Shown in pieces: positions 7,301 to 56,507 of a stretch of DNA of 64,000 nt; position 1 is the stretch's first letter; each line of letters opens with the position of its first letter. The position numbers and the translations under genes are program-made. The notes below the pieces were generated by a model. The model saw only the letters and a program-made list of their open reading frames with translations, had not been told where the DNA came from and searched no databases. Origin of the DNA: Haliclystus octoradiatus (lineage: Eukaryota; Cnidaria; Staurozoa; Stauromedusae; Haliclystidae); assembly GCA_916610825.1 (NCBI GenBank), contig OU744447.1, positions 15,793,751 through 15,857,750 of the forward strand, read 5' to 3'.

Positions 7301-10300
7301 TATAATATAGATCAGATTACAACTCTGAAATTATTGACAGATTGTTGCTGTTTACCTCTGTGAAATGAATCTAATGAAGTTCATGAAAGTGGACATTTAC
7401 ACTGAACAATTCAAGAACAGTTCATACAAGTACAACTCAATCTAGATTCACCATTTTGATATAAGGTTTGTGAAATATTATTATGTACAATTCTACAATG
7501 CTTGAATGAACATGAAAAATTACATGAACAGTTCTAATTGTTCATGAAAATTTAAATATATTATGTTTCATATGAAAGACAGGCTTTGCTTTCTACTTTA
7601 TCTCATTCTATCAATCAAGAATCATTGATTCCATGAAAGAGCGTACAATAGGCATGTAATTGTAGAATTGCTTAAATCACCTGCAAGGCCATAAGTTCAT
7701 CTTTCAAACTCTTGAAACTATCAGCATTTGCTTCCATGGCCATTCCATTTTTCATCTAAAAATAAATAATGCTGATTACCTTGGGTCCACTATGTCAGCT
7801 CAAGATGGGTACAAACCAGAATAAATAAAGGTAAAGGCTCAATCTCTGTAACTTATCAATAATACCTTTTCTTCTTGAAATTGTTGCAGCTTCTCGTCAT
7901 ACTGTAATCAAAGCATAATAATAGTATTGTATAACCATAGACACAGGCTAACCAAATAATTTCACAACATAGTGTAGAACACCTGAGGACTATAGACCAA
8001 CAAAAGGCAGGGTACAATAGAGTAGGCAGTTTAAGAAATATTCATGTATTCCCTGCAAAAATATTAATGGAGTTCATGAACTGCTCATGAACTCTTGAAC
8101 AGTTCATAAACAGTTTACGAACTTTACAAATTTTCATGAATTGTCATGAACATCTTATAAATAGTTCATGGTCAGTTCATGAACGTTAACTGGCAAAATT
8201 TTCATAAAATCTTTTCATGAACTGTTCATGAACACCTTATAAATAGTTCATAAACAGTTCATGAACGTTAACTGGCTCAATTTTCATAAAATATTTTCAT
8301 AAACTGTTCATGAACACCTTATATATAGTTCATAAACAGTTCATGAACGTTAACTGGCCCAATATTCATAAAATCTTTTCATGAACTGTACATGAACATT
8401 TTATAAAAGAGTTCATGAACAGTTCATGAACGTTAACTGGCAAAATTTTCATAAAATCTTTTCATGAACTGTTCATGAACACCTTATAAATAGTTCATAA
8501 ACAGTTCATGAACGTTAACTGGCCCAATATTCATAACATCTTTTCATGAAATGTTCATGAACATTTTATAAATAGTTCATGAACAGTTCATGAACGTTAA
8601 CTGGCAAAATTTTCATAAAATCTTTTCATGAACTGTTCATGAACACCTTATAAATAGTTCATAAACAGTTCATGAACGTTAACTGGCTCAATTTTCATAA
8701 AATATTTTCATAAACTGTTCATGAACACCTTATATATAGTTCATAAACAGTTCATGAACGTTAACTGGCCCAATATTCATAAAATCTTTTCATGAACTGT
8801 ACATGAACATTTTATAAAAGAGTTCATGAACAGTTCATGAACGTTAACTGGCAAAATTTTCATAAAATCTTTTCATGTACTGTTCATGAACACCTTATAA
8901 ATAGTTCATAAACAGTTCATGAACGTTAACTGGCCCAATATTCATAACATCTTTTCATGAAATGTTCATGAACATTTTATAAATAGTTCATGAACAGTTC
9001 ATGAACGTTAACTGGCTAAATTTCATAAAATCTTTTCATGAACTGTTCATGAACACCTTATAAATAGTTCATAAACAGTTCATGAACGTTAACTGACTCA
9101 ATTTTCATAAAATATTTTCATAAACTGTTCATGAACACCTTATATATAGTTCATAAACAGTTTATGAACGTTAACTGGCCCAATATTCATAAAATCTTTT
9201 CATGAACTGTACATGAACATTTTATAAAAGAGTTCATGAACAGTTCATGAACGTTAACTGGCAAAATTTTCATAAAATCTTTTCATGAACTGTTCATGAA
9301 CACTTTATAAATAGTTCATAAACAGTTCATGAACGTTAACTGGCCCAATATTCATAACATCTTTTCATGAAATGTTCATGAACATTTTATAAATAGTTCA
9401 TGAACAGTTCATGAACGTTAACTGGCTAAATTTCATAAAATATTTTCATAAACTGTTCATGACACTCTATAAATAGTTCATGAACAGTTGATGAATGTTA
9501 ACTGGCCCAATTTTCATAAAATCTCTTCATTAACTGTTCATGAATACCATTTAATAATCACTTGAAAAAAACTTGAGTCATGATTGGTGGATTTGTACCA
9601 CGTGCTTAGCAGTTATGTAAAGACAACCCACGATATTCCATGGCAACCACTAAAAGCGTGAAGGTATAGGTCTATACCCGCACGTGTGCGGTTATAGAGC
9701 TATACCTGCACGGCTTTAACCAAACAGCCAGAACACATGTTTTGAAAATGGCGACAATCTGGACAGATTGAATATTTTTTCATAAAATCAAATGAAATGT
9801 ATAATCTGCAATTGAAAATTCAATTGAGAAATTAAAAAAAGTAACAGCTTGGGAATTGCTATATTCAGATGTAACTTTTACTATATTTTTAATATTGCAA
9901 ACATGTTTGAAAAACAATTATATTGAATTCTTCGCTTTATATTTTGAAATGATATTCGTAAGAATTTCACTCAAATTGTATTTAATGAAAAATCAATGAA
10001 CCATTAAATTAGAAAACAAGTCATTGTTGTATGGAAATTGATGACAGACAATTGATGTTCCAGACAAGGTTATGTTACATGATTATTAAAATGATTACAT
10101 CTGTAATCCTTTAATAAATAGTTCATGAACAGTTTAAGAACTTTACAAACTTTCATGAACTGTTCATGAACATCTTCCCAGCAAACACTGACGGTCAGGG
10201 GACGTCCCCAGTGAGTCTGGAAGGTTTCACAGCGGTCAGTCACAATTATACAGCTATACAACGTCCCTCAACGTCGTGTCAGGGTCCCAAACACTTTTAT

Positions 10301-13300
10301 AAAACTATTTTCATGTGTTTACGTCATAAGTGCCGACTAGGTCGCAAAATTACGGCTTGGCAACCTACGTATTCTTGATCGATTGGAGACGTATGTAAAC
10401 AATATCACACCCAGTTTGAATTGCAGAAAAGAGGCGCCAGAAAGTTTCACAACACATTTTTATAACGGCCGTTCTGGAGCTTCCGTGTTGATGAAGTTGG
10501 AATTTAAATAATCGTTCAATATCTCTCGGGATTTTTAAAGGTAAGATGCTCTTGAAAATTCAATACAGTTTAGCTATTGAAAATATAGGCAATCCTGACT
10601 TCTACGGTATCAAAATCGTGTTTACGTTTTAGGAATTTTAATTGGTGTGAACAACCCACCTTTCCGAAAACATTGACGCGCTTGTAGACATCACATGTCT
10701 GTCAGCTACAACCCATTTGCTGCTGAAAAGTACCTCGTTTTCAAGCTTTGTATGTTATTAATTATCCGTCCTCCGGTTATAGCTTGAAAAAAGCCGGTTT
10801 TTATGTTTTTCAACTTTAAATGTCTCTCATACAAAAACGGGCGATACAATTCATTTCATTTCTTAGTATGTCATAGTCAAACGTGTATCGAAGTGATTTA
10901 AAAAAACTACATAAAAAAATATCAAGTCGATATTTAGAAACAGCCATTTAAGTTGACCTAAGTGTGATTTCACGTCTTTTCAGATTTTGAAAAAAGCCGG
11001 TTTTTATGTTTTTCAACTTTAAATGTCTCTCATACTAAAAAAGAAGATACAATTCACTTCATTTCTTAGTATGTCATAGTCAAACGTGTATCGAAGTGAT
11101 TTAAAAAAACTAGATGGAAAAATATCAAGTCTATATTTAGAAACAGCCATTTAAGTTGACCTAAGTGTGATTTCACGTCTTTTCAGATTTTGAAAAAGGC
11201 CGGTTTTCTACTTTCTCAAGTTTAAATATTTCTCATACTAAAACGGGCGATACAGTTCACTTCATTTCTTAGTATGTCATAGTCAAACGTGTATAGAAGT
11301 GATTTAAAAAAACTAGATGGAAAAATATCAAGTCTATATTTAGAAACATCCATTTAAGTTGACCTCGGTGTGATTTCACCTCTTTTCAGATTTTGAAAAA
11401 AGCCGGTTTTCTACTTTCTCAAGTTTAAATATTTCTTATACTAAAACGGGCGATACAATTCACTTCATTTCTTAGTATGTCATAGTCAAACGTGTATCGA
11501 AGTGATTTAAAAAAACTAGATGAAAAAATATCAAGTCTATATTTAGAAACAGCCATTTAAGTTGACCTCGGTGTGATTTCACCGTTTTAGTATGAGAGAC
11601 ATTTAAAGTGAAAAAAAGTAGAAAACCGGCTTTTTTCAAAATCTGAAAAGAGGTGAAATCACACCAAGGTCAACTTAAATGGCTGTTTCTAAATATAGAC
11701 TTGATATTTTTTTATCTAGTTTTTTTAAATCACTTCGATACACGTTTGACTATGACATACTAAGAAATGAAGTGAATTGTATCTCACGTTTTAGTATGAG
11801 AGACATTTAAAGTTGAAAAACATAAAAACTGGCTTTTTTCAAAATCTGAAAAGACGTGAAATCACACTTAGGTCAACTTAAATGGCTGTTTCTAAATATA
11901 GACTTGATATTTTTCCATGTAGTTTTTTAAATCACTTCGATACACGTTTGACTATGACATACTAAGAAATGAAGTGAATTGTATCTCCCGTTTTAGTATG
12001 AGAGACATTTAAAGTTGAAAAACATAAAAACCGGCTTTTTTCAAAATATGAAAAGACGTGAAATCACACCTAGGTCAACTTAAAAGGCTGTTTCTAAATA
12101 TGGACTTGATATTTTTCCATCTAGTTTTTTTAAATCACTTCGATACACGTTTGACTATGACATACTAAGAAATCAAGTGAATTGTATCGCCCGTTTTAGT
12201 ATGAGAAATATTTAAACTTGAGAAAGTAGAAAACCGGCCTTTTTCAAAATCTGAAAAGACTAGAAATCACACTTAGGTCAACTTAAATGGCTGTTTCTAA
12301 ATATAGACTTGATATTTTTCATCTAGTTTTTTTAAATCACTTCGATACACGTTTGACTATGACATACTAAGAAATGAAATGAATTGTATCTCCCGTTTTA
12401 GAATGAGAGACATTTAAAGTTGAAAAACATAAAAACCGGCTTTTTTCAAAATCTGAAAAGACGTGAAATCACACTTAGGTCAACTTAAATGGCTGTTTCT
12501 AAATATAGACTTGATATTTTTCCATGTAGTTTTTTTAAATCACTTCGATACACGTTTGACTATGACATACTAAGAAATGAAGTGAATTGTATTGCCCGTT
12601 TTAGTATGAGAAATATTTAAACTTGAGAAAGTAGAAAACGGCTTTTTTCAAAATCTGAAAAGACGTGAAATCACACTTAGGTCAACTTAAATGGCTGTTT
12701 CTAAATATAGACTTGATATTTTTCCATGTAGTTTTTTTAAATCACTTCGATACACGTTTGACTATGACATACTAAGAAATGAAGTGAATTGTATCTTCTT
12801 TTTTAGTATGAGAGACATTTAAAGTTGAAAAACATAAAAACCGGCTTTTTTCAAAATCTGAAAAGACGTGAAATCACACTTAGGTCAACTTAAATGGCTG
12901 TTTCTAAATATCGACTTGATATTTTTTTATGTAGTTTTTTTAAATCACTTCGATACACGTTTGACTATGACATACTAAGAAATGAAATGAATTGTATCGC
13001 CCGTTTTTGTATGAGAGACATTTAAAGTTGAAAAACATAAAAACCGGCTTTTTTCAAGCTGTAACCGGAGGACGGATAATTAATAACATACAAAGCTTGA
13101 AAACGAGGTACTTTTCAGCAGCAAATGGGTTGTAGCTGACAGACATGTGATGTCTACAAGCGCGTCAATGTTTTCGGAAAGGTGGGTTGTTCACACCAAT
13201 TAAAATTCCTAAAACGTAAACACGATTTTGATACCGTAGAAGTCAGGATTGCCAAAATATATACTTGCTGATTGTTTATACTGAGGTAGTATATGTTTGC

Positions 13301-16300
13301 TTTATTGTAGATTAGATTTCAATTAATGTTTTCGACACAGTTTTTGAAAGCGAAATGTCTACTTCTTCGATGTGTCGCTGTCAAATAAATGAGACTGCCA
13401 GGTAAAATATTACAACCTCATTGCTATAGTTCAGTATAAACTAACTAATGTTTATAATAATACTTTTAATGATCTTGAATTCAAGCTTATTTATCTGCAG
13501 TTGAATTGAAAAACCGAATAACAATGTTACCTTCGCCGCTCATTCCATCAAACTTATACCGAAGGTAAATCTATCAAAACGCTGCCTAATTATTCTTCAA
13601 AACATCATTTTTTAGTTGTCTATATTTAATGTATTATAATGATCATACTATACCAGTTACTGACCTATAATTTCTATATATTTATTTATCTATTAATAAA
13701 CAAATTTCCTTCACCTTACATCGACATTTTCCCAGAGGTAAATATATCAAAGACGCTGTATTAATCCTTAATTTCTTACATGATGTTTGAGTTGTCTATA
13801 TTTATGCTTTAATATTAATAATAATATTCTTTATTATTTCTGTTAAAGATTTAATCTGAATCGCTAGTGATATGGCCAGCCAAGCCGAGAGGAACATATT
13901 TGGAAATATATTATTGGGTTTTATTGCAACAAAATGGCTGATGTATTCCTATAAGATCTACAACTACTTAGAACTTCGATGTTGGATTATTATTACAAAA
14001 GATGGTTATAAAATCTGGGATTTATATTATTAGCAGACATGTTTACGGATTTGGTTATCACAACGAAAGTACCTGTGGATTTAGCTACTAATGGCGTATC
14101 GAATATATTATTTGTATTGACAATTTGCGTGAAATTTATCAACATTCATTAAAGGAATTCCTTTAACTAACTTGAACGGTAGAAGATAAACACTTGTAAG
14201 AAAGATCTCATAACTATCATTTTAACTCAACTATGAACGTTTTATTTTATGTTTAATAAATTGAATGCGTTTGAAAACACAACACTTTGTAGTTTCCTTT
14301 CATGTTAAATACTTTTAAACAGAATAGTGTGAACTGTGACCTTCATGCGTGGCATATATTGCCAAAGGCGAGGCAAATATCTCGCAAATCAACGTCAGAG
14401 TTTAGTCACCGGAGGGTCTCCATGAAGGTCTCCTAGACAATCTGGTAACGTCACCGGGGCGTAAAAAATTGTCTACTGGTACACTGTCGATAGACGTCCA
14501 AAGAGACGTCTCGGAGACTGTCCATCGACCTTCGTAGACGTCTCCTGACGTTGCAGGGACGTCTCCGTGTTTGCTGGGTTAAAATTAGTTCATGAATAGT
14601 TTAAGAACTTTACAAACTTTCATGAACTGTTCATGAACTGTTCATGAACATCTTAAAATTAGTTCATGAACAAGTTGAGAACTTTACAAACTTTCATGAA
14701 TGGTTCATGAACACCATATAAATAGTTCATGAACAGTTTAAGAACTTTACAAACTTTCATGAACTGTTCATGAACATCTTAAAATTAGTTCATACACAGT
14801 TTAAGAACTTTACAAACTTTTATGAACTGTTCATGAACAGTTCATGAACGTTGACTGGTTAAATTTCACAAAACATTTTCATGAACAGTTCATGAACACC
14901 ATATAAATAGTTCAGTTTAAGAACTTTACAAACTTTCATGAACTGTTCATGAACACCTTGTAAATAGTTCATGAACAGTTCATGAACGTTAACTGGTCAA
15001 CTTTTCATAAAACATTTTCATGAACAGTTCATGAACAGTTTAAGAACATTACAAACTTTCATAAACCGTTATTGAATACATTATAAACAGTTCATAAACA
15101 GTTCATGAACGTCAACTGGTTAAATTTCCATAAAAAAAGTCATGAACTGCTCATGGCACCCTATAAATAGTTCATGAACAGTTTAAGAACTTAACAAACT
15201 TTCATAAATGTTAACATGCCCAATTTTCATAAACTTTTTTCGTGAACTGTTCAACAATAGTTCATGAAAATTAGGTCATTTAAAGTTCATGAACTGTTTT
15301 CACAGAGTGTGAATGTGAAACAATCCTTCATTGTAGAGTCTGTACCTTGTAAAAATGCAGCATAATATTTCATGTCATAACCTTTCCTAGCCATTAACAT
15401 TTCCCTCCTGTTGTATAAACACAGGCCCGTTGCGGCAGGGGGACTGGGTGATTGTTTGTTTCTACTTTCAAAAACATATTTTCCTTTGGACTCCAGAATG
15501 CAGGATAGAGCTTATACAGATACAATATTTGAAATTTTATTCCGGGGGAGCATGCCCCCATCCAACTAGTGTGAGGGCCCTTACGCCCTATTGTTCGTTC
15601 CATCCAACCCCCTCCCATTCCAAATTTGCTTCCAACAGGCCTGAAATACATAGAGTTCATACGGTAAAGACTAACTTCAAAAATGATAGCTCAACTTCAG
15701 TAGTTTAAAATCCACTCACCTTTCGTTTCTCTTCCCTTTGCTGCTGTTTCAGACAGTATATTTCTTTCATCAATTTGTCTCTTTCTTCCTCCTGCAATAA
15801 TTTATTATCCAAATAGTTGACATTACAGGACCATCTACAATTCATTAGTGTCATGAAAATTCATTTATAAAAGTAGTAGATTGCATTAAAAATTACATCG
15901 CCAGGAAAGTAACAGATTGAGCACATTGTAGTTTCATATCGTTTATTCCGACAATTCATGAACATATATGTGTATCTTATGTCTACAAATATTCATTACA
16001 TTCAAACCTTCTATTGCAGTCACCTCTTTATATGGAAACCAACTGTCTATAATGACCATTTAATTAATATATACAAAAATATTCAATGTTCTATTGAACA
16101 AACCCTGATATAAAGGTTACCTGTCTACAGTGGTCAATTGATCTTTCTATCTTATAGCCATAGGTGACTGCTATGTATGATTAATATAGATAGAAATAGA
16201 TATAGATACATTTCAATGACATTTTCCAAAACTTGCCAACTTCTATAGATCTATTACAATTTCTCACGATGGATATGCAATAATCTAATTCATACTATAT

Positions 16301-41807: not shown

Positions 41808-43732
41808 GCGAATAGTAAATACACCAAATGTAATACAAAAGTTCTTATCCAATAATCCACTTAATAATTACCAGTCGTGCATCACAATTTTTTCATTCTT
41901 AATTTTCCATATATGTTGGTAAAAAGTGTCATGTTAGTGTCTTTTCAAAGACGTGTAGTCACGATACCAATCGCCACAAGTTTGGAAGAACAGGCTAGCT
42001 GTGAATTGAAATACAATTGCCTGTCATAATATTCTTGCTGTGATATCTATTTGTAAAGGAAGCGCTACTCAAACCTGCTGCGGTTTGCACTGTGGTGATA
42101 AAATAAATGAATTGTTCACGCGGGTAATTTGAAAAGATATCTTCAGATCTAAACATTCACCGTCAAAAGTCAAGTCTTTAACTCATTTAAGCCCCGACGC
42201 AACCAAAACAGTTTCTACTAATACCAATCATTGTCAATTAATCAAAAATATATCTTGGTGTTTGATAGCAATATAATGATATCAAAAATTCTTGAAGTTA
42301 TTATCTGAAGAGACCATAGACTTACAGAAAAGACAAGCCTGACATGAAGTGATGGGTTAATATATTTTCTGAGGCCCAGTGTCGCTGCTAGCTGCTACGT
42401 CCCGCCAAGACTCAGCAAATGTATTTTCGTACAACCTTTTGACTTTAGTGGCTATTGTTCATGTAGGCATACTGTATCCTTCCCGACAGAACATTTATTT
42501 TGTTTATCAGGACTTCTAATGATTTTTCATCAATATTACCCTCCTATCCAACGTCCTTTAAAAATGTTTTAATTACGATGACTAATTAAAATGTAATCAT
42601 GTGATGTTCTATTAACTATTAAGTGTTTAAAATGCATTCAATAGCCTCAATATTAACTACGTAATATAAATACAGTAATATAATAAATAAATGGATGAAT
42701 GGATGAGTTATGTTAAGTGTAAGAAAGCCGTATATCTGTGTAAAGAATCAAGCATGTCCCATTGGAATTTTTATGTATTGTTCATATACTATATAGAATT
42801 AGAGTTGTGTGTTGTTGGTATAACGGAAATTTGTATAAGGTACAACAAGATAAGTGGTCATAATGAGTAGGAATTACTTTGGTACAGGCTTTTGATTTGC
42901 ATCGATAAATATTTAATTAGATTAATATAGTGAACAACTACGAGAACAATTGTAGAAAGGATAAAAGAATTCCAAACGATGTCCAGACTATATGAGACAA
43001 GTAATTCATTGTATTGGGAAGGAAATTAGGTTAGTGAAAAAGTATTGTAAAAATTATAACCGCAGATTGATGATACCGCAGTATCCAAGGGTACAGTTAT
43101 GGTTACCATTGTTTTACCAAAGGGCTAGACCAGAAGCACCCCAGTTCGATATATAAGGATACCTTATCATTTACCCCCCAACAAAAACAAATTGATTTGA
43201 CTGTCCGGTCTATGGTCCAGCCTATCCCTTTGTGCGTCATCTGTCTAAATTAAGGTTGTGCGCTTACCTTCCGTCGGAAGATGCAGAATTGAGCTGGGAC
43301 GATACAAACATATTAACAAATAGTCCCCCTCTCTTAAACAAGGGCCTATTATCTTTCTTTCTTTATCACTGAGAAACCAGGACAACTAACATAAAATATT
43401 TTGAAACCAATCGGAGGAGTATCACGTACCGACGTTAAGTTGTATTGCGGATTTCTTTAAACTGTAAGACTGAGACAAGTACGGTTCATTGTCTAATAAA
43501 ACGTAGACAATTTGACCAATTAAGATCATCAATATACGTTGATGTCTTTGATGTAAAACTCATTCTAAAAGCTGGAATAGAAAATTTAATAAATCCGCAT
43601 AATACATGGTTAAACCATGCAAAGCATAGTAGTAATAGTAGTAGTATAGACAGTCACATTATAGGAATGTGCCATCTCTCTTACGCCTTACATATTTGCT
43701 ACACAAAGAACGCCACAAAGCACAGCCAGGCA
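41808..43732. other. Intergenic/5' region upstream of scaffold gene
   Basis: No exon, RNA gene or named repeat was recognised. Upstream exons or a promoter of the scaffold gene may lie here. Confidence 0.4.
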
Positions 43733-43806
43733 TAGCCTGCGTCACAGACCAAAACATTTTTAGAACGTTAACGTTCTAAAAATGTTTTGGTCTGTGACGC
43801 AGGCTA
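43733..43806. repeat. 74-bp perfect palindrome with flanking 13-bp direct repeats
   Basis: Two 37-bp arms meet at AACGTT/AACGTT with no loop. AGCCAGGCATAGC occurs at 43724-43736 and again at 43807-43819, immediately around the palindrome, like a target duplication. Confidence 0.9.
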
Positions 43807-43852
43807 AGCCAGGCATAGCTGACAAAGAAACTTTTAAATAACACAATTCACG

Positions 43853-44036
43853 ATACAAAACATTATGAAAAGATACTACTCTCCCATAGCCCCGTCGAAG
43901 CATCTCCTTCGGTTGCCAATGATATGCAAAGCACTTGTACATGTAGTAATAAAGTTTCATCAATTTTAAAATAAAATCAGTTTCTTTAATCATTTGAAAG
44001 AGGTACTGAATTTTCTTAACATTTTTGATGGCTTAG
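43853..44036. repeat. 184-bp direct repeat, left copy
   Basis: Nearly identical to 45113-45296; one difference noted (GCACTTG here, GCATTTG there). The two copies bracket the GRDP pseudogene fragment. Confidence 0.95.
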
Positions 44037-44038
44037 CC

Positions 44039-45112
44039 TGCCAAATTAAATCATTATCGTAACAGCGCTATTGTATGGGGGAATTGTAAAACTGAACATC
44101 TTGATCGCCTCCAGAGATTGCAGAACAGAGGAATGAGGTCAGTGCTCCGTTGTAACTATCGAACTCGTGTCTCTGATATGCAAAGTCAGCTTGGCTGGCT
44201 TTCTGTCAGAGACCGAATAACATCAAATCAACTAATGTTCACACACAAAATTAAATTTAACAAATCTCCTCCTTTGCTTTCTTCATTATTTCAACGACCA
44301 CATACCACCAGAACAAGATCCCACTACCACAATGACATTTACATCAGGTCAAGCCATTGCCACTCATTTCAACATGCTGGTGCTCATAAGTGGAACGATC
44401 TACCGTCTACAATGAAGGAAGTATCAAACAGGCCAACTTTCAAACGTCTCCTTGGGAAGCACTTACACGGAATAACATAATTAAGTTAATCAAATATTTC
44501 TTCAAATGTCTATCCTGTAAAGTATATTGTTGTAAAATTGTATTGTTATTATATGTATATCTATATATTTATAAATCAGTCTTGTGAAAAAAAGCTTTTA
44601 GCTTATTCAAGTTCTGAATAAATGATGATGATGATGATGATGATGATGAAGGAACAACAAAATGAGATGGGTTTTCTTTCTTTATTAATAATAACAATTG
44701 ATATCTCCTTTCACCATTTTCCAAGAATTTAATATCACGGTAATGCGGTAATGAAACTTGGTATATAAATGACGATTGTCGAATTGCAGCGGTTATTAAA
44801 TCATAGGAGATGTCTGATTGGAATGTTGCATCTTGTTTTGGTGCAGTTTTAAAATCTATTTCATAAGGTTCAAAAGGATATTTTTTCAGCCAAATTTTTG
44901 CTGTTTTTTAAGTAGTTCCGCTCTTGATTCCGTGGAATATAATTTATGGTCAACAACTTTTCCAATTACTTTCATACAATCCATACGATAATTGTAAGGT
45001 GATAGCATATGCACTTGCCATATCCATTCAATATCTAACGGTGCAACTACCTCCAAATCATATCTTGCAGCTAACGGTAGCCAATACATCTCGTATCTTT
45101 GGGCTACATATT
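44039..45112 (-). pseudogene. GRDP gene fragment, interrupted by LINE and frameshifted
   Basis: Bases 44039-44064 and 44649-45112 match 48083-48572 of the intact GRDP gene almost base for base, corresponding to about residues 41-204. A LINE fragment (44065-44648) splits it at the position equivalent to 48108. One T is missing from a T-run near 44910 (six T here, seven in the intact gene), shifting the frame after the AELLKK residues. There is no start codon or C-terminal part. The high identity indicates a recent duplication; it cannot encode a GRDP protein. Confidence 0.92.
44065..44648 (+). mobile_element. 5'-truncated non-LTR retrotransposon (LINE) fragment
   Basis: It contains the open C-terminal end of an ORF2-type protein (44067-44480, TAA stop). 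It opens AIVWGNCKTEHLDRLQRLQ, the classical C-terminus after the reverse transcriptase, and continues to a GAHKWNDLPSTM motif. An about 140-bp 3' UTR and a (GAT)n tail at about 44620-44648 follow. Comparison with the intact GRDP gene shows insertion with at most a 1-bp target duplication. The clade is not determined. Confidence 0.85.
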
Positions 45113-45296
45113 ATACAAAACATTATGAAAAGATACTACTCTCCCATAGCCCCGTCGAAGCATCTCCTTCGGTTGCCAATGATATGCAAAGCATTTGTAC
45201 ATGTAGTAATAAAGTTTCATCAATTTTAAAATAAAATCAGTTTCTTTAATCATTTGAAAGAGGTACTGAATTTTCTTAACATTTTTGATGGCTTAG
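45113..45296. repeat. 184-bp direct repeat, right copy
   Basis: Second copy of 43853-44036; it begins exactly where the GRDP homology ends. Confidence 0.95.
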
Positions 45297-46749: not shown

Positions 46750-48693
46750 TTATCCCCCTCCACATCCTCCTCCACATCCCCCACCACCACAGCCTCCTCC
46801 GCCACATCCTCCTCCCCCACCCCCTCCTCCACACCCACCGCAACCACCGCAACCACCACATCCACCACCATCACCTCCATCTCCTCCGTTCCAACGAGAA
46901 GCATCTCCCCCTGGTGTATTCTGGTAATCCCCTAACATAGGGTCACCATTGTGATGATGTCCAACATAACATGACCTAGAACCACGTGTAGAAGTGCCGT
47001 AATAACGAGGTAAATAATAATTATATAAACCAGCACCAACAAGAAAAGACATTTCTGAAACATTCAACACACCAGGCCTAAATACAGACGAATCGTCATA
47101 GTTTGTAACCTGTTTCGTTTTCGTGTCAAATTGAGGAGGAGGTCGTGGATGACACAGTAGAAATAAAACAGCAACGCAGCATGCCATACATAGAACTTCA
47201 GGGACGCGTTCAACTTTTGATAACAGCCTCACCAAACCATTTGTTAAATCAATACTAACAGAATGACTTTTTTCACCAATATAATATCTCACGACAACAT
47301 CATTTCGACCATCAAAACTCGTCGACCAACTTCTCAAAACACCGTCAGGTGAATTCAAACTCACAACTTCCAAATGAAAACGTCCTAATCTGCCTTTGGT
47401 GTTCCGTGATCCTCTTTTAAAATCCAGCCATGAGCCTTTCACAATAAAACAATCTTGATTATGACTTCGTATTAGCATTGCTCTTTGTTTTATTGGTTTA
47501 AATGTTATACATTCTGCAACATTTTGAACCTGGTCTGGATGTGGTAAGATTTGAGCACCAATTGTATGTCCTGTACAAAGTAAATTATTAATGTCGTTAT
47601 TATCAATGTCAAATAATTCCACCGCAGAAAGAGCTGGCTTTTTACAATGTGTAACGCGTAACATACAGACAAGATTGGAGTCTGCTGTCAGAACATAAAT
47701 ACGGTTAAATTCACAGGGTGTGCCTTCCAAGTGGACTGATGGCGGACATAGGAATTCTGGATGTTGTAAAACTTTTGAAACTTGAGGTGCTTCTTGTGTT
47801 GTTTGTGAAACTCGGATTATAAAAGTGTAGCTTTTGGGATCGGTGAATTGTATATCTAAATTATTTAAACTTTTATGTAGTATCATAGGCTCTCCTCTAT
47901 ACATTGCACCGGATGTACTAAACAGTTTGCCTTTTAATTTCAATAAACGAGCTGTTTTATTACTAGAATCATCTAATTTCGACCCAGGTTCCCTTTCATT
48001 AACACTATCGTCATGATCTAACATTTTGCCAAGAAGGCGAGCAGTTTCTGTTTCATAAAGTATTGGATGTAGTTGATGAGCATGCCAAACTAAATCATTA
48101 TCGTAACAAGGAACAACAAAATGAGATGGGTTTTCTTTCTTTATTAATAATAACAATTGATATCTCCTTTCACCATTTTCCAAGAATTTAATATCACGGT
48201 AATGCGGTAATGAAACTTGGTATATAAATGACGATTGTCGAATTGCAGCGGTTATTAAATCATAGGAGATGTCTGATTGGAATGTTGCATCTTGTTTTGG
48301 TGCAGTTTTAAAATCTATTTCATAAGGTTCAAAAGGATATTTTTTCAGCCAAATTTTTGCTGTTTTTTTAAGTAGTTCCGCTCTTGATTCCGTGGAATAT
48401 AATTTATGGTCAACAACTTTTCCAATTACTTTCATACAATCCATACGATAATTGTAAGGTGATAGCATATGCACTTGCCATATCCATTCAATATCTAACG
48501 GTGCAACTACCTCCAAATCATATCTTGCAGCTAATGGTAGCCAATACATCTCGTATCTTTGGGCTACATATTGTAAATATGTACGGTCGAATAACTGTGG
48601 ATAGGTTGAGATAATTTTAAGGAAATCATACTCAAATTGGGCAGCTTCAACCAAATTAACTTTTGATTTGTATTTTGAAGTTACTGAACCCAT
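46750..48693 (-). CDS. GRDP/DUF1399-family protein with Gly/Cys-rich tail
   Basis: Single-exon ORF of 647 residues. GRDP proteins are known mainly from plants and fungi, with roles reported in stress and growth; the animal role is unknown. Two copies of the family motif are seen: DIEWIWQVHMLSP (about 68-79) and NDLVWHAHQLHP (about 199-210). Around 409-425 a block MLIRSHNQDCFIVKGSWLDF recurs in the paralogue. A hydrophobic Cys-containing segment (about 498-515, ending CHPRPPP) is followed by VGAGLYNYYLPRYYG. The last about 45 residues are almost only Gly and Cys. The N-terminus MGSVTSK fits an N-myristoylation signal, and with the hydrophobic Cys segment suggests membrane attachment (inference). 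The paralogue lies 4.3 kb upstream on the same strand, and a broken copy lies downstream at 44039-45112. Confidence 0.88.
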   Translation of the reverse strand: MGSVTSKYKSKVNLVEAAQFEYDFLKIISTYPQLFDRTYLQYVAQRYEMYWLPLAARYDLEVVAPLDIEWIWQVHMLSPYNYRMDCMKVIGKVVDHKLYSTESRAELLKKTAKIWLKKYPFEPYEIDFKTAPKQDATFQSDISYDLITAAIRQSSFIYQVSLPHYRDIKFLENGERRYQLLLLIKKENPSHFVVPCYDNDLVWHAHQLHPILYETETARLLGKMLDHDDSVNEREPGSKLDDSSNKTARLLKLKGKLFSTSGAMYRGEPMILHKSLNNLDIQFTDPKSYTFIIRVSQTTQEAPQVSKVLQHPEFLCPPSVHLEGTPCEFNRIYVLTADSNLVCMLRVTHCKKPALSAVELFDIDNNDINNLLCTGHTIGAQILPHPDQVQNVAECITFKPIKQRAMLIRSHNQDCFIVKGSWLDFKRGSRNTKGRLGRFHLEVVSLNSPDGVLRSWSTSFDGRNDVVVRYYIGEKSHSVSIDLTNGLVRLLSKVERVPEVLCMACCVAVLFLLCHPRPPPQFDTKTKQVTNYDDSSVFRPGVLNVSEMSFLVGAGLYNYYLPRYYGTSTRGSRSCYVGHHHNGDPMLGDYQNTPGGDASRWNGGDGGDGGGCGGCGGCGGCGGGGGGGGCGGGGCGGGGCGGGCGGG

Positions 48694-51600
48694 TTTGAGA
48701 ATACATCAAAGATTTGTCTAGAACAGAAAGGATACAATATTTATATGAATAAATAATGATGATGCATACTTTTCAATTATCGATTCTACACGTTAATTAA
48801 GATAGCCTTATCTCTCCTATATTATCCTCACAATTCTTTAACATAATTATGAGTTTCCTCAAAATAATAATTGTGAGATTTTTAACTGGGTCGTTGGTTT
48901 GGTATACTTATGAACTTCTTCGCCATAATTATATGAATTTCTTGGACGTGCGAACCATGCATTCTTGACATTCTTGAAATTGAGTACATACACAAAGACA
49001 TTCGCATTTATAGGTATAGATAGTAACTACAGTACTTATTAGTTTATTACCCTCCGTGCAAAGACACGCAATGCGAAGCGATTAAATGGGAAAGAGGCTT
49101 CACAGGAAGAACAGGAAGAACAGGAAGATGTCGAAAGCGTACCTGACGAAACGTCGTTCGTGTGAACGTGCAGTCAAGAAAAAGAATGATAATATTATTA
49201 ACATGTGAAATGTTAAAAAATCAAAGGCTACAGCTGCAAGATTTGGACAGCATGCTTAGTATCCGACATCAAATGCACGGTTAGCGAATTTCCAGTCGTG
49301 AAAGAAAAGTAGATGTAACTTGCTCATCAAGGTTCACATAGATGATGTAAAGAGGTTGCGGACGTGCGGTTGCGGATAATCATAACTCTCATAAATCTAT
49401 ACCATATGGACACCTTTCACCACGATATTCTAAACAAATTAACGTCAAAATATGCATGGGAACTAGTTCCAGGCTCCTTTTTATTTATATTGAGTTATGA
49501 ACATTGAACAAAACGTCTGAATATAATAATGGATTGAAGCTATCACGCGTTTACATTGCAATTTTGCTCATTCTGAAATCAATACTCAAAATATTTTGGA
49601 AACTCTGAAATAGGTACCAAACAACTAATTTTCAGAGACCATGAAAAGGTACCCTCATATTTGCACATCCCCTTATACCTACCAACCGTATGAAGTTAGC
49701 ATTAACCTACCCAGACCATTACTATTAAGGGGATACACAAAACGCTCTGACTCTGTAGAATATCGCCGCCAAAATGTATTATCCATCTTAAGTACTTCTG
49801 TGGAAACATATTCTATAAGTTCTCAAGTAGATTGAAAAACTAATTAGTGTAGCCATATATTCTGAAACGGGTTAATATATACCTATTTTTTTTTATTAAG
49901 CTATGCGGGGAGCTATAAGAACATTTAAATTGTGTTTTGGAGGTCAGAAAATAGATTTGCGGATATAAATAAATAGAAGCTCAAATGTTTAGTATAAAAA
50001 CCGCAGTGACAACAGAATTGTAACGATTTCAAAATAATTATATCATCGACATAAAGTAAAGCGCATATTGCATTTGAGATCAAGTGAAATATAATTTAAC
50101 ATACAATGATAGAATAGAGACGCTTAAACACAACAGGTTATGAAAAAAATGAGCGTGACAAAAACAGGAATACTGCTTTATAATATAGAATCGCTTCTGC
50201 AACTTCGCCGACTACGTTATCTGAAATTGCATTATAAACTTTACACAAGGAAGATGTATGGTTCTAGACTTATCATGTTTCCATCTAGCATATAATTTAT
50301 GATATCCTAGTTTGAAAATATTCTAATCATCAAGATAACAAATAATATGTTGAAAAACGCACACACTGCTTTACTCACCTAGTCTACAGCTGTCCTCAAT
50401 TTGCGAATCAGCGACTAACTCAACAATTTCATAAAATAACACAATTATGGTGATACGATTTTGTAGTATTTTCTCGACTAAGATATTCTTTAATTAAAAA
50501 ATAAAAGGATAATGTCATTTCGAGCCACAAGGCTTGATAAATCAGTGGTCAATTGAGAACATTTTGCAACGACGACTTGAAAATTGTTTTATAAGATTTA
50601 CGGAGCGTGTAAAATTGTTCTTTGAAAAACTGACGAAAACAACAGCGCAAAAATTTGGACCAATCATGTTGGTCTTATTTAATTACTTATATTAAAATTA
50701 CCGGTAAATATATCGAGATAAGCGTAATGATAATGAATAACAGTATTCGGAATAATACATTTTGAAAACAGCATAGTCTGCAGATACTCTGAAAATGTTC
50801 AGTTTTTGAGCCTAGAACTCTTTTTCACAACACTTTCTATGTTGAATGTGTCAATTGAAGTATTCAATATTTATTAAAAATGTATTGAAGCTATAGCAGT
50901 AGTTTACCTGTAGTTCATAAATTTGTTAAAATGGATTTCAAAAATGCGGTTAGGCTTGAATTTCCAAAGCAGTTAGATATTGAAATGCACTATTGATGCT
51001 GACGGCTGCATATGCATAATATGTCCTGTATAAATACGAAGACTCTCTACACGTTAGAAATCTAATCAGATTGTGTTGGTTCTATATAACTTTACATATT
51101 TCGTTTACAAGTGAAAAGTGAAATATTTTTCAATCGTGCCATGGCTGTCAGCTGTTTGCACGTTGGTTTGACAAGTAAAAGAGATCATTATTCGGTGGTT
51201 TGACCGCTGCACAGTATACTATTCCTTGAAATTAATTCTAAACCTTGAACCGAAATATACTTTATCAAAAACTTAAAACCGATCCCATTCCTGGCTAAAT
51301 CTTTATGTAGATCCTTGATGTGATGCTCTCTATATGGCGTAGAAACGGAAATATATAACTCTATTATATGAACAATGGCCCGAGTTTGCTTTTAGGTGGA
51401 TCCAGTATCCCAATATAAATCGGATTAGGTTCATCAAATTACGATCAACAGCGGTTGCACCTCCACGTTGTGGTAGGGGAGTCGTTATCAATGAATATTA
51501 GGACAATGATAGATTGGTTCGACTTTTCAGTTCACAACTGATAAGAACCGTGTTGTTGTCTGCCGTGCCCTAGTACCAGCCTAGTACTGGTTACTACCAA

Positions 51601-52981
51601 GATTTGTTCGTTCAAGCTTCTAAGGCTCAAAAATGATATATGGCAAGTAAGCGGTAGCAATGAGATATCGGACGTCACGATTGAGTCAAAAATAAATAAT
51701 TGGCCGTCATACTGTAGTACCTGACTGATTTAGTAACACACGATACCATAATTGCATCAGGTGTTTAATTTAAAAGGTACAGTAATATATATTAATGTTC
51801 AAATAGTCAGATGAAAATTACACGAAGAGCGTGGAAAACTCCAATTTATCCGGTGAAGAGAATTGATTCACTTATACAAACGTCATGTGAAGATAAATGA
51901 AATATTTGAATACAGTACATGCATACTAGATCATACAGAAATCGTATAAAGGAAACAACGATATAGTTGGTCTCAGTATAAGAAGTACTTCTTACAGAAA
52001 ACATCACAATAAAAAATGTATTAGACAAATAAATGAGGTAATTTGGTGAATTTGCATATATTACTATTTTGATTGTGATACAAATGATTTCATATGAAAA
52101 AGTGGAATAACAAGTAGTATGTTTTGTTATCTTTTCAAACATTGCAATTGATAACTACAATAAATAATATGTACTCAAAACCTGTCAAAACGCATGTGAA
52201 ATTCTCAGCTGTCAATTGGCAGCCAACCAGCCCCACTTTATCATTTACATAGTATATTTTTATTTGAATATTTTATTTACATATTATAACTATTGGTTTT
52301 TAACTACAAATAGAAAATATAATACCACTGCCTGCATTTTTGATGTTCCGTCCCGGGAGGAGCAACTTCGATATTTTTTGAATCGGGGAGGACGGTAAAA
52401 TCCGTAACATTTCACAATAATCCGGAAAAGGAACCTTAAAAATGGCACGTCCCGTATAGCCGATGTGTGGAAGTGCCCCCCTGGGCATGCCGTACACACT
52501 TCAAGTCATGATAGTTGTGTGAGAATTAAAATTTCAAAATAGTCTAAAATGAAGGATATATGTGGACCATTTTTAGATGGTTTCAAACGGGAAAAACGTA
52601 ATAACTCGAATTCACAAGGATGGAGATAGCCATAAATCGGCTAAAAATCTAAACATTCTAATGCATGTTTACTATGGAGATCAACAATACCGGGCTCGTC
52701 TAAGAAGAGGTGCTTCAATCAAATGTTATATTAGAATTCTTTGTTATAAATTTATACAAGCGATGGTCAATATACTAAAGCTACTTAATCCACGTGTATT
52801 GCAATCTGAATATTTCTCTATGCATAGCAGCAAATATTAAATGCAACTAAATAATCACTCCAACAATCAAAATTAGTCCCTTTCCATCTATATGGGCGTT
52901 GAAAATTCGAGATAAAAATGCTCTGCATATATACATTATATAAACCAGATAGTTGCATATTATATGAGCTGATTCTGACTT
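48694..52981. other. Intergenic region between the two GRDP genes
   Basis: Low-complexity AT-rich DNA with scattered short ORFs, none convincing. A GC-richer patch at about 52345-52500 may be an unidentified interspersed repeat. The promoter of the first GRDP gene should lie just above 48693. Confidence 0.4.
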
Positions 52982-55483
52982 TTAAAGATCTGTTTTAATA
53001 GTATCTTTGTCTCTTATTATTGTCTCATAGCCCCCATCGTCTATATCATCTTCTTCTGTCGTGTCATCTTCTATACCATCATCATTATCATTTTCTTTTG
53101 AAGGATTTTCTCCGCCGCTAATATCTCCAACCCCACTATCTCTCACAATTTCATCTAATTCTTCATCTGTTATATTAATTTCTTCAGAAGTTTCTCCATA
53201 CTTTGTACCAGCTACTTCGTTCTTATCATTAGTTGTATCATTCAATAGATGATGATCTGATTCCTGACTGTCCATACTTTTACTATTCCAAGATCTATCA
53301 AGTGACTGGTCATCATCGTTATCAATTTTTTTATCATTACTATTTTCAATTGGTCCATCTAACATACTATATCCATTAGTATTCACAATATTATCATAAC
53401 AACGTGGTAAACAATAATTGTATAGTCCAGCTGACACAACAAACAGCATTTTATCAACATCTAGAGCTTTCCTTTTCATAATACCAAATTCGTAAGGATG
53501 GACTGATTTTTTGATGTGATCAGAAAGTGGGGCTGGTCGGGGCTGACAGAGAACAAATAAAATGGCCGCACAACAACATGAGCAAATTACTTCTGCAACA
53601 CAAGGCAGATCATATTCAGATTCAATTGTTCCCTTTTTCATATCAATAGTTGCTGCATATATCTGCTCATCAAAATAAAATTCAACGTTTATTTGTTCTC
53701 TTCCTTTACATTGTAGAGAAAATAATTTTGCGGGGTGGTGGTTGCTCCTTAGAGTTGTGATATCAATTATCATTTTTCCCGATTTTCTTGTTTTTGTTTT
53801 ACCATCTTTAAAACCTAACCATGATCCTTTTAATAGTGCCCAATCTCTTCCATGACTTTGTATCAACATTGCTCTATTAATAGATGAATCATAAGCAATT
53901 GATTGATGGGTGTCACTCACTTGTGTTGGATGTGGCAAAGTTAAACCATCAATAGTACGTCCACTTGCAAGTAATTTATTATCCCTATCAGATAGTTCTA
54001 CAGCTGAAAACGCTGGATTGTTACAATGAATTACTTTCCATGAAAACACTTGGGTGCCATCGATTGTCTTTAGTGGATGTATTTGATATTGGCAAGGCGA
54101 TGGATTTTTAGGAATACCAGTCATATGTTGAGAATTTTCTAAAGCTTCGTTAACACCTGGTACAATATACATATTTTCCGTTTTATCCACAACAAAATAA
54201 TATTTAGTTGGTATAGATGAACTTTCTTCACTATCGACATAAATGGATAGAGTTGCAGGTAAAACAGAGTTGTCTTTGGTTGGAATAGATAAATCTTGTG
54301 GTCGTCCATTAGATGTTCCACAAATCAATGATAATGTTAAATGTTTTATAATAATATTATATTCAATATCATCTCCTTCAGTTTGCCCTCGACGTTTACC
54401 AATTAGATTGATTTGCAAACCTAAATCAATTTCACTATCAAAATGTAATAAACCTTCATGTTTTTGAAAATCTAAAGCACGTCGTCCTGTTGCAGAATCT
54501 AATCCTTTTTTACAAATTCGTAGGACGTCACTGTTGTGTTTTACGATGTTGACCGTTACAATAAAATTCATTTGATCTGGTAAGTCATCGAAACGCATCT
54601 GACTTAATTTCATATTATATTGCTTATTCACGAGAGATGTAAAAGGGTCCGAACTATCACGATCAATCAATTTAGGTGGTGTGCCTCGAAATCGTGTACC
54701 TTGAACAACGTGTATCTTGCCTTTAGCGTTGTATAACTTCAAGTTATCTTCAATATCTGATCTCGAGGCTGTATCAACAATTCTACCAGGTGCAGTACAA
54801 TCGTATTGTGGAGTTGACCCAAATAATTTCGTAGTTTCTAGTTCGTATATGAAAGGATGCAACATGTGTACATACCACACAAAATGATTATCATAACAAG
54901 TTAGATGATTAATATTAGGATTTTCTTTCATCAAAAATAAAAATAATTGATATCTTTTCAATGCTTTTTTCAAAAATCTTTTATCGTAATAATGAGGTAG
55001 CGAAACTTGATAAGCGAATGATGTTAATATTTCTGTTGCTTTAATTATATCATAATTTAATCTTGATTCAATTGGTAATTCAATAACTGGAGCTTCGTTG
55101 AAATCAACTGAAAATGGAACGTTGTTATGCTCCTTTTCCCAAACAATTCGTGTTGCTTCAAGTAATTTATCTCTATCTTCCGTTGAGAAACATTTATGAT
55201 CGATAACAGTGCCATAATTTCTTAAACAATCTTCTTTGTATGTGACCGGACTCAGCATATGTGCTTGCCAAACCCACTCGACGTCAATCGGCGCAGCAAT
55301 CGTTGAGTCATATTTAGCAGCTAACGGCAACCAGTATTTCTCATAGCGGTAAATAGCATATGGGACAAATTCACCATTAATTAAGCCAGATATTTCACCA
55401 ATATGATGTAAGAACTCGTATTGATGTTGACAAGCCTCGATAAGATTAATTTGTGATTTGTATTTGATTGATTGGTTACCCAT
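52982..55483 (-). CDS. GRDP/DUF1399-family protein with acidic tail
   Basis: Single-exon ORF of 833 residues, paralogous to the 46750-48693 gene along its length. N-terminus MGNQSIKYKSQINLIEA (compare MGSVTSKYKSKVNLVEA). Family motifs are DVEWVWQAHMLSP (about 68-79) and NHFVWYVHMLHP (about 199-210); in the second, the paralogue's WHAH is WYVH. A middle region (about 290-480) longer than the paralogue's contains beta-rich sequence. The MLIQSHGRDWALLKGSWLGF block is at about 539-558. The hydrophobic Cys-rich segment (EVICSCCCAAILFVLCQPRP) is at about 631-650, then VSAGLYNYCLPRCY. The final about 120 residues are Asp/Glu/Ser-rich instead of Gly/Cys-rich. The myristoylation signal is weaker (Ile at position 6). 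The function is unknown. Confidence 0.87.
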   Translation of the reverse strand: MGNQSIKYKSQINLIEACQHQYEFLHHIGEISGLINGEFVPYAIYRYEKYWLPLAAKYDSTIAAPIDVEWVWQAHMLSPVTYKEDCLRNYGTVIDHKCFSTEDRDKLLEATRIVWEKEHNNVPFSVDFNEAPVIELPIESRLNYDIIKATEILTSFAYQVSLPHYYDKRFLKKALKRYQLFLFLMKENPNINHLTCYDNHFVWYVHMLHPFIYELETTKLFGSTPQYDCTAPGRIVDTASRSDIEDNLKLYNAKGKIHVVQGTRFRGTPPKLIDRDSSDPFTSLVNKQYNMKLSQMRFDDLPDQMNFIVTVNIVKHNSDVLRICKKGLDSATGRRALDFQKHEGLLHFDSEIDLGLQINLIGKRRGQTEGDDIEYNIIIKHLTLSLICGTSNGRPQDLSIPTKDNSVLPATLSIYVDSEESSSIPTKYYFVVDKTENMYIVPGVNEALENSQHMTGIPKNPSPCQYQIHPLKTIDGTQVFSWKVIHCNNPAFSAVELSDRDNKLLASGRTIDGLTLPHPTQVSDTHQSIAYDSSINRAMLIQSHGRDWALLKGSWLGFKDGKTKTRKSGKMIIDITTLRSNHHPAKLFSLQCKGREQINVEFYFDEQIYAATIDMKKGTIESEYDLPCVAEVICSCCCAAILFVLCQPRPAPLSDHIKKSVHPYEFGIMKRKALDVDKMLFVVSAGLYNYCLPRCYDNIVNTNGYSMLDGPIENSNDKKIDNDDDQSLDRSWNSKSMDSQESDHHLLNDTTNDKNEVAGTKYGETSEEINITDEELDEIVRDSGVGDISGGENPSKENDNDDGIEDDTTEEDDIDDGGYETIIRDKDTIKTDL

Positions 55484-56507
55484 AGCAACAATAACTTTTG
55501 CGTGTTTCTATCCTGATACGAGAAAAATAGTAACGAAATGAAGCACATATACTAAAATGACTTTTTAATAAATATAATATTGAATTGGTTTAAATACGAA
55601 GAGCAATATATACATTGGATAAAGAAATAATGAAATTAATCATCTCATTCACAAAAGATTGTTATTCGAAAACAAATGTTTTTATTCTTTCTACTATACA
55701 AGTAAATCAAAATTGATGTTGAATATTTTTGTTTATTCTATTTAAATAAAACATATCAAAAAGCAATAATACTTACTCAAAATATCTGTCTTTCGTATAT
55801 CAACTCTAAACATTATCTAAACTGTCAACCAAATCTTTTATCTTGTGAAACTGTGATAAATAGTCTTTGATTCCTTTCAAATAGCCCGGAGGATATAGTT
55901 TCCTAATACGATAGGGGACAAGGGGCAATATGTTTTAATTCTATAGAAATCATAGAATTGATAAAATTAAATTACATTGATTTCGAATATAAACATAATC
56001 AACTACAGTCATTTAATAATGAATTGACGATTATCAAGAGTTCGTCTTTTGAGTTTATAACCGACGCGCAAAATCGACAAGATTTTTCTTTAACTAAAAC
56101 CAAGCTCAGTATGATTAGCAGGTCCCAGTCTAAAGTTTTAGTCATCACAAAACAGGTGTTACACAAAATGTCGCGGTTCACAAAGAACCACGATTTTAAG
56201 GTTTTATTCAATTATTGCCCTGATCTTTATTCTGTCTATGAGAAATCAGCCGATAGTATATTTTAAATGTAACAATAAGTCGATGACTAAACCGATTCTA
56301 TAATATTCAATAAGTTTGAAGCAAAACGCATTTAAGAGAATTAGAAGGAATTATTAGAGGATTTTCTTAATTTGTTGGCCATCGCCATGTTTTTGATAAG
56401 CTCATCACAAACGATTTTGCAAAGTGAGTTTAATTATCAAGGCCATATTTACATTATTATAGTGAATTTTAAAACGAAGTTTATAATTAACAAATGTCAT
56501 TTTCATC
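55484..56507. other. Intergenic region between GRDP paralogue and NDUFV1
   Basis: Holds the GRDP paralogue's promoter side and the NDUFV1 3' flank. A 102-codon plus-strand ORF (55958-56266) is not recognisable and has no supporting splice or family signal. Confidence 0.4.

Follow-up and report, generated by a model that had tools for sequence, protein, structure and literature searches.

At least five GRDP genes with uninterrupted coding frames in Haliclystus octoradiatus may encode membrane-anchored proteins

Do the two neighboring long reading frames of this locus encode animal members of the GRDP family, and would such proteins be held on a membrane? Both lie on the minus strand of the window, by which we mean the whole 64,000-nucleotide stretch that was analysed (G000:C2:15793751-15857750, chromosome 2 of Haliclystus octoradiatus). 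The coding region of gene 1 (G1; 46750..48693) is one open frame of 647 aa, and that of gene 2 (G2; 52982..55483) is one open frame of 833 aa. Against the Pfam profile PF07173 (GRDP-like/DUF1399), G1 scored 146.4 bits (E 1.2e-42) and G2 107.6 bits (E 1.1e-30). Both values lie far above the Pfam gathering score of 22.7, which bears out the family membership in an animal that a sequence-only reading had proposed.

A profile search of the whole genome (261,861,806 bases in 33 contigs) gave 11 matches, which resolve into five full-length GRDP genes and one fragment; the best stretches in the window genes fell at 48052..48453 (G1) and 54842..55240 (G2), both on the minus strand. A protein search of the genome with G1 returned the identical set, again with 11 matches. 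As such match counts are lower bounds, the genome holds at least five GRDP genes, compared with the two of the sequence-only reading. The further genes, G3 (C2, 18.51 Mb; 817 aa), G4 (C2, 18.54 Mb; 871 aa) and G5 (chromosome 8, contig C10; 756 aa), are each a single uninterrupted frame, as is thus the case in five of five.

PF07173 matched all five paralogue proteins and was the only Pfam family common to more than one of them; three others were each matched by a single member at E 0.03-0.25. No RNA-binding domain was found by Pfam in the five proteins and no family match by NCBIfam, and two weak matches in PHROGs (E 0.015 and 0.029) were taken as chance. Scans with two short peptide patterns each gave 35 pattern matches in prokaryotic genome contigs as well as 56 and 29 pattern matches in viral contigs, with zero confirmed relatives among either, although distant relatives would be missable by such patterns in both. 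When compared to solved structures, neither the 2 hits of G1 alone (best E 0.41) nor the single hit obtained with the two-protein core (E 0.29) was credible. The 43 solved-structure hits of the five-protein profile were rejected; all lie at profile positions 702-799, in the tail region, and the two alignments inspected show Gly-rich linkers.

The window contains 28 stop-to-stop ORFs of at least 100 aa, ten of which were scanned with Pfam. One of these is RT-like, one minus-strand block matches PDZ above the cut-off, and the liprin-alpha-like coiled-coil match of another falls below it; the scanned neighbor blocks look like exons. Rfam gave nothing in the window at the gathering score. Two adjacent tandem arrays of 203-bp units occupy 10784-13057, meet at 11582 and run in opposite directions, the units being reverse complements by eye. 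Satellite-like arrays built on the palindromic word TTCATGAA are located at 8131-9548 and 14579-15135, with units of 82 bp (17.3 copies) and of 63, 123 and 126 bp. Elsewhere in the assembly, the mitochondrial contig (18,316 bases) carries cox1, assigned by Pfam, head to head with cox2-atp8-atp6-cox3-nad2, assigned by eye; a TGA occurs inside cox1, and ARAGORN found two tRNA genes in the first 10,000 bases. Such an arrangement is indicative of a medusozoan cnidarian.

The core identity among paralogue pairs is 29-52%, and 107 of 703 core positions are invariant across the five proteins. NG86 estimates of dN were 0.44-0.80 and those of dS 1.9-4.2 in nine pairs, while dS of the tenth pair was not computable and is read as saturated. 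Since dS greatly exceeds dN, the paralogues look like old, constrained genes. They are most likely functional, old duplicates that have kept their long frames under purifying selection. The D..W.W..H.L.P repeats described earlier for both window genes are present as two copies in each, but the strict form is restricted to one copy per gene; the second, located 131 residues further on in both G1 and G2, requires the relaxed form D..[LF].W..H.L.P. In G1, the motif copies belong to a repeat within the protein, the units of which are 28% identical over 57 aa (E 7e-8). Aligned with G3, G1 also lacks a stretch of about 140 residues that links the DUF1399 and C-terminal parts and is kept in the other four proteins.

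At the N-terminus, both window proteins share the start MGxxxxKYKS that had been noted before, with MGSVTSKYKS in G1 (48664..48693, minus strand) and MGNQSIKYKS in G2 (55454..55483, minus strand). Met1, Gly2, Lys7 and Lys9 are invariant in all five paralogues and Ser6 occurs in four. The nine-residue start, a small sample, thus has four invariant positions including the start Met, compared to 107 of 703 over the core. The PROSITE-type (PS00008-type) myristoylation pattern reads M-G-{EDRKHPFYW}-x(2)-[STAGCN]-{P}. It is matched by three of the five proteins, G1, G3 and G4, and failed by G2 (Ile at residue 6) and G5 (Lys at residue 3), so that of the myristoylation-like starts formerly attributed to both window genes, that of G1 fits the pattern and that of G2 does not. 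The start of G5 resembles that of hippocalcin, MGKQNSK.

In-frame stops are found 6-27 nt upstream of the ATG in G1 (TGA at -15), G2 (TAG at -27), G3 and G5. MG is therefore the first in-frame Met in four of five genes, including both in the window. For the same reason, no upstream coding exon would read into MG in these four genes unless an AG between stop and ATG is used; by eye, such an AG is present in G2 and G3 and absent from G1 and G5. The nearest in-frame stop of G4 is part of its candidate splice site, so that an upstream coding exon is possible for this gene. All five genes have a purine at -3 and a G at +4. The putative leaders of G1 and G4 contain one upstream ATG each, out of frame by eye.

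The Cys-rich hydrophobic segment before AGLYNY, previously seen in both window genes, is present in all five paralogues; in the window genes, AGLYNY follows about 50 residues after it. In G1 the segment is VLCMACCVAVLFLLC (47152..47196, minus strand; residues 500-514) and in G2 it is VICSCCCAAILFVLC (53546..53590, minus strand; residues 632-646). It forms the top Kyte-Doolittle 19-mer (KD19) of both proteins, with 2.21 in G1 and 2.53 in G2, and the best 19-mers that do not overlap it score 1.0 and 0.98, respectively. Correspondingly, a Cys-rich hydrophobic run of 15-16 residues gives the top KD19 in all five paralogues (2.21-2.53), the next non-overlapping value being at most 1.47. The segments contain 3-6 Cys per 18 residues, compared to 1.7-2.7% Cys in the preceding part of the five proteins.

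Judged from sequence, these features may describe a cytosolic GRDP that is held on the membrane by N-myristate and a palmitoylated Cys-rich segment, a reading to which we give a probability of roughly 45%. The protein would probably be held at two points. At the first, Gly2 would be exposed by loss of the initiator Met and receive the N-myristate, with Lys7 and Lys9 helping. The second contact would be the segment of 15-16 residues, most likely palmitoylated and placed in the inner leaflet without spanning the membrane. Between the anchors there would be the internal repeat of DUF1399 (conserved D-x4-W-x2-H-x3-P) and the unclassified C-terminal region, which is probably the partner-binding part, and the divergent tail, be it Gly/Cys, Gly or acidic, may set what each paralogue recruits or whether it cross-links. 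The two-anchor reading is supported by the PF07173 match in five of five proteins and by dS values far above dN, by the invariance of Met1, Gly2, Lys7 and Lys9 despite a core identity of only 29-52%, by the top KD19 together with the Cys enrichment in five of five proteins, and by the first-Met evidence with the purine at -3 and G at +4. It is weakened by the two of five starts that fail the pattern, by the small sample of start positions, by the upstream ATG in the putative leaders of G1 and G4, by a hydrophobic run so short that it might sit in the interior of a folded domain, and by the accessible text of PMC4299439, which discusses plant GRDPs as having a putative RNA-binding motif instead of a membrane anchor.

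Alternatively, the Cys-rich segment could be a buried core element of an unclassified C-terminal domain, with GRDP being a soluble protein that maybe binds RNA or proteins, as proposed for the plant GRDPs, and an inherited MG start that is free of lipid. We regard this as doubtful, though worth weighing. A run of just 15-16 residues would agree with it, as would the two starts outside the myristoylation pattern. In addition, the putative RNP-1 motif of plant GRDPs, given as KGSCFLPM in the same part of PMC4299439, resembles by eye the KGSWLDFK and KGSWLGFK of the window genes, and the C-terminal region may hence be shared with soluble plant proteins. However, this likeness is at best the four residues KGSW, and the other three paralogues have RASW or RSSW at this position. 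A KD19 of 2.2-2.5 with strong Cys enrichment was also judged the better fit to a membrane contact, and we therefore keep to the reading with two lipid anchors.

Are the genes also single exons, as had been stated? Their coding regions are one open frame each, but acceptor-like sites occur before both ATGs and the transcripts may be spliced, so that the term single-exon gene is not claimable from the DNA alone. The site of G1 (48718..48735, minus strand) would place the exon start 24 nt before the ATG and scores 7.23 bits, a value reached by 4.6% of the random control of 10,000 55-mers drawn from the window. For G2 (55513..55530, minus strand), the predicted exon start lies 29 nt upstream of the ATG, and the site scores 10.22 bits (0.24% of random). 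Similar sites lie 22 nt before the ATG in G3 (9.11 bits; 0.94% of random 55-mers as high) and 27 nt before it in G4 (7.42 bits; 3.9%), and none was found before the ATG of G5 (-0.99 bits; 81%). In a second control, 469 stretches upstream of ATGG words of the window, the fractions for G1 to G5 were 4.7%, 0.2%, 1.1%, 3.8% and 84%; Fisher's combination of the five is 1.6e-4, which assumes an independence that paralogues violate. The acceptor model and its frequencies are generic, and the test is post hoc, as sites and the 55-nt span were chosen after the sites had been sighted by eye. Four candidate acceptors of the gene at 24-41 kb score 6.4-9.7 bits, being best-scoring guesses and not verified boundaries. 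The acceptor-like sites before the GRDP frames probably belong to a 5' UTR intron or, less likely, represent a spliced-leader acceptor.

The sequence-only reading had explained the paralogues by retroposition of a spliced mRNA with subsequent local tandem duplication, which we consider unlikely. The uninterrupted coding frames of all five genes and the spacing of two gene pairs within 5 kb and 30 kb would be in line with it. However, none of the five genes has a poly(A) run of at least 8 in the 800 nt that follow it, a candidate splice acceptor precedes the ATG in four of five, and no intron-bearing parent is among the genome matches, which are lower bounds. The absent poly(A) run weighs less as counter-evidence, since with dS this high one would no longer expect such a run to be preserved; nevertheless, retroposition is left without positive evidence. 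Nor do the data favor an origin of the window pair by simple local tandem duplication, as G1 shares 51.5% identity with G3, at a distance of 2.7 Mb, and 39.1% with the adjacent G2. The tree of the five paralogues groups G1 with G3 too, with weak support (71.6/50). The flanks of the five genes, compared over 2 kb in each direction or 1.9 kb below G3, yielded matches of only 13-28 nt between any pair (best E 0.017).

Close to G1 there is a recent copy of a fragment of this gene at 44649..45115 (minus strand), which matches 48108-48575 with 99.4% identity over 468 nt; a further piece at 44035-44064 matches 48079-48108 with 93% over 30 nt. Within 43853-45296 of the window, the fragment (source 48079-48575) is flanked by two 184-nt direct repeats that are 99.5% identical, and is interrupted by a stretch at about 44065-44648 that has an (ATG)n tail and an ORF resembling RT by eye, for which Pfam gave no hit. 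By its looks, this is filler DNA that was recently inserted at a break and was accompanied by a long target duplication. Near the fragment, positions 43725-43814 form a near-perfect palindrome of 90 bp, whose 45-nt arms are 96% complementary and directly adjoin each other. Upstream of G3, an ORF (L009:5848-6804, minus strand) resembles by eye a piece of a retrotransposon gag/protease.

The paralogues differ most visibly at their C-termini, and the different tails reported for the window pair were confirmed. The Gly/Cys tail of G1 (46753..46998, minus strand; residues 566-647) consists of 51% Gly and 11% Cys, whereas the acidic tail of G2 (52985..53395, minus strand; residues 697-833) has 31% Asp plus Glu, 9% Ser and 8% Gly. 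G3 carries Gly/Cys repeats (58% Gly, 9% Cys), G4 a Gly-rich tail (28% Gly) and G5 a short tail of 62 residues (11% Gly). A Gly-rich C-terminal domain, the naming feature of plant GRDP1/2, is thus seen in G1 (51% Gly) as opposed to G2 (8% Gly); two Arabidopsis DUF1399 proteins are likewise described as being without it in the available part of PMC4299439. The tail consensus of plant GRDP2 orthologues given there, [CG]GGGCGG[GC], is matched four times in G1 and five times in G3, with zero matches in G2, G4 and G5. Composition-preserving shuffles gave a mean of 0.10 (G1) and 0.25 (G3) matches, and 0 of 1000 reached the observed number for either gene. As periodic repeats alone would beat such shuffles, this result speaks for a matching repeat pattern and is no evidence of common descent. 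Another plant tail consensus, GCGXXCXGXCG, listed with longer forms in the part of PMC8585784 at hand, had zero matches in all five tails, as did its two longer forms. With one plant consensus matched and another not, the Gly/Cys tail could be old architecture or a simple repeat that has arisen anew. The Gly/Cys repeat of G3 runs on in frame beyond the stop (L009 below 1882, minus strand; by eye), which suggests that slippage of the repeat and gain or loss of stops alter the length of the tail.

That the segment is instead a short transmembrane helix, with a cytosolic N-terminal half and a lumenal or extracellular tail that, where of the Gly/Cys type, could be cross-linked by disulphides, is quite improbable: the KD19 of all five proteins (at least 2.21) lies above the classical Kyte-Doolittle transmembrane threshold of 1.6 and the tails of G1 (11% Cys) and G3 (9% Cys) are Cys-rich, but 15-16 residues are short for a plasma-membrane helix and the conserved Cys within the segment are better explained by palmitoylation. 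Extending the reading with myristate and palmitate anchors, one may speculate on a cnidarian GRDP branch that is membrane-tethered and doubly acylated, in which paralogues swap Gly/Cys for acidic tails and a leader is spliced to an intron-free coding exon; we would hold this full combination to be rather unlikely.

The genes are real and conserved members of a family already known, in an animal class that has received little study, and the membrane-anchor hypothesis for them is coherent and predicted only. Plant DUF1399/GRDP proteins have effects on growth, auxin and stress with no mechanism known, and the animal members provide a simple membrane hypothesis. The earlier statement that family knowledge comes mainly from plants holds insofar as the DUF1399/GRDP literature that we searched is nearly all from plants, but animal members have already been counted and named. 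By title, DUF1399 led to plants and one fungus and 'glycine-rich domain-containing protein' to plants and nematodes, while PF07173, GRDP-like or IPR009836 led to soybean, Metarhizium and Hydra. Our literature search gave nothing that pairs DUF1399 with cnidaria or the family name with sponge. The term 'myristoyl' was not found in the accessible text of PMC4299439 or PMC8585784; membrane anchoring of GRDPs was not met in the literature consulted, by which we do not claim that it is unpublished.

How do the genes compare with known GRDPs? The likeness to plant GRDP1 and GRDP2 (Arabidopsis At2g22660 and At4g37900) is that of DUF1399 in the N-terminal half. The tails of G1 and G3 match the plant GRDP2 consensus, whereas that of G2 is acidic instead, and AtGRDP2 has five exons according to the accessible text of PMC4299439, in contrast to the one-frame coding regions found here. 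GRDP-like genes in animals are already known from the parts of PMC7642931 and PMC6826867 available to us. In the latter, C. elegans F32B5.7 is named glycine-rich domain-containing protein, so that an animal protein bears the family name, a comparison by name alone. In the former, GRDP-like domains were counted in seven cnidarians including Hydra, Clytia, Morbakka, Aurelia, Nematostella and Acropora; following the sequence of the table legend, they number 9, 7, 2, 2, 1, 2 and 3. These carry the same Pfam name, and their numbers, compared as domain counts alone, bracket the five found in H. octoradiatus.
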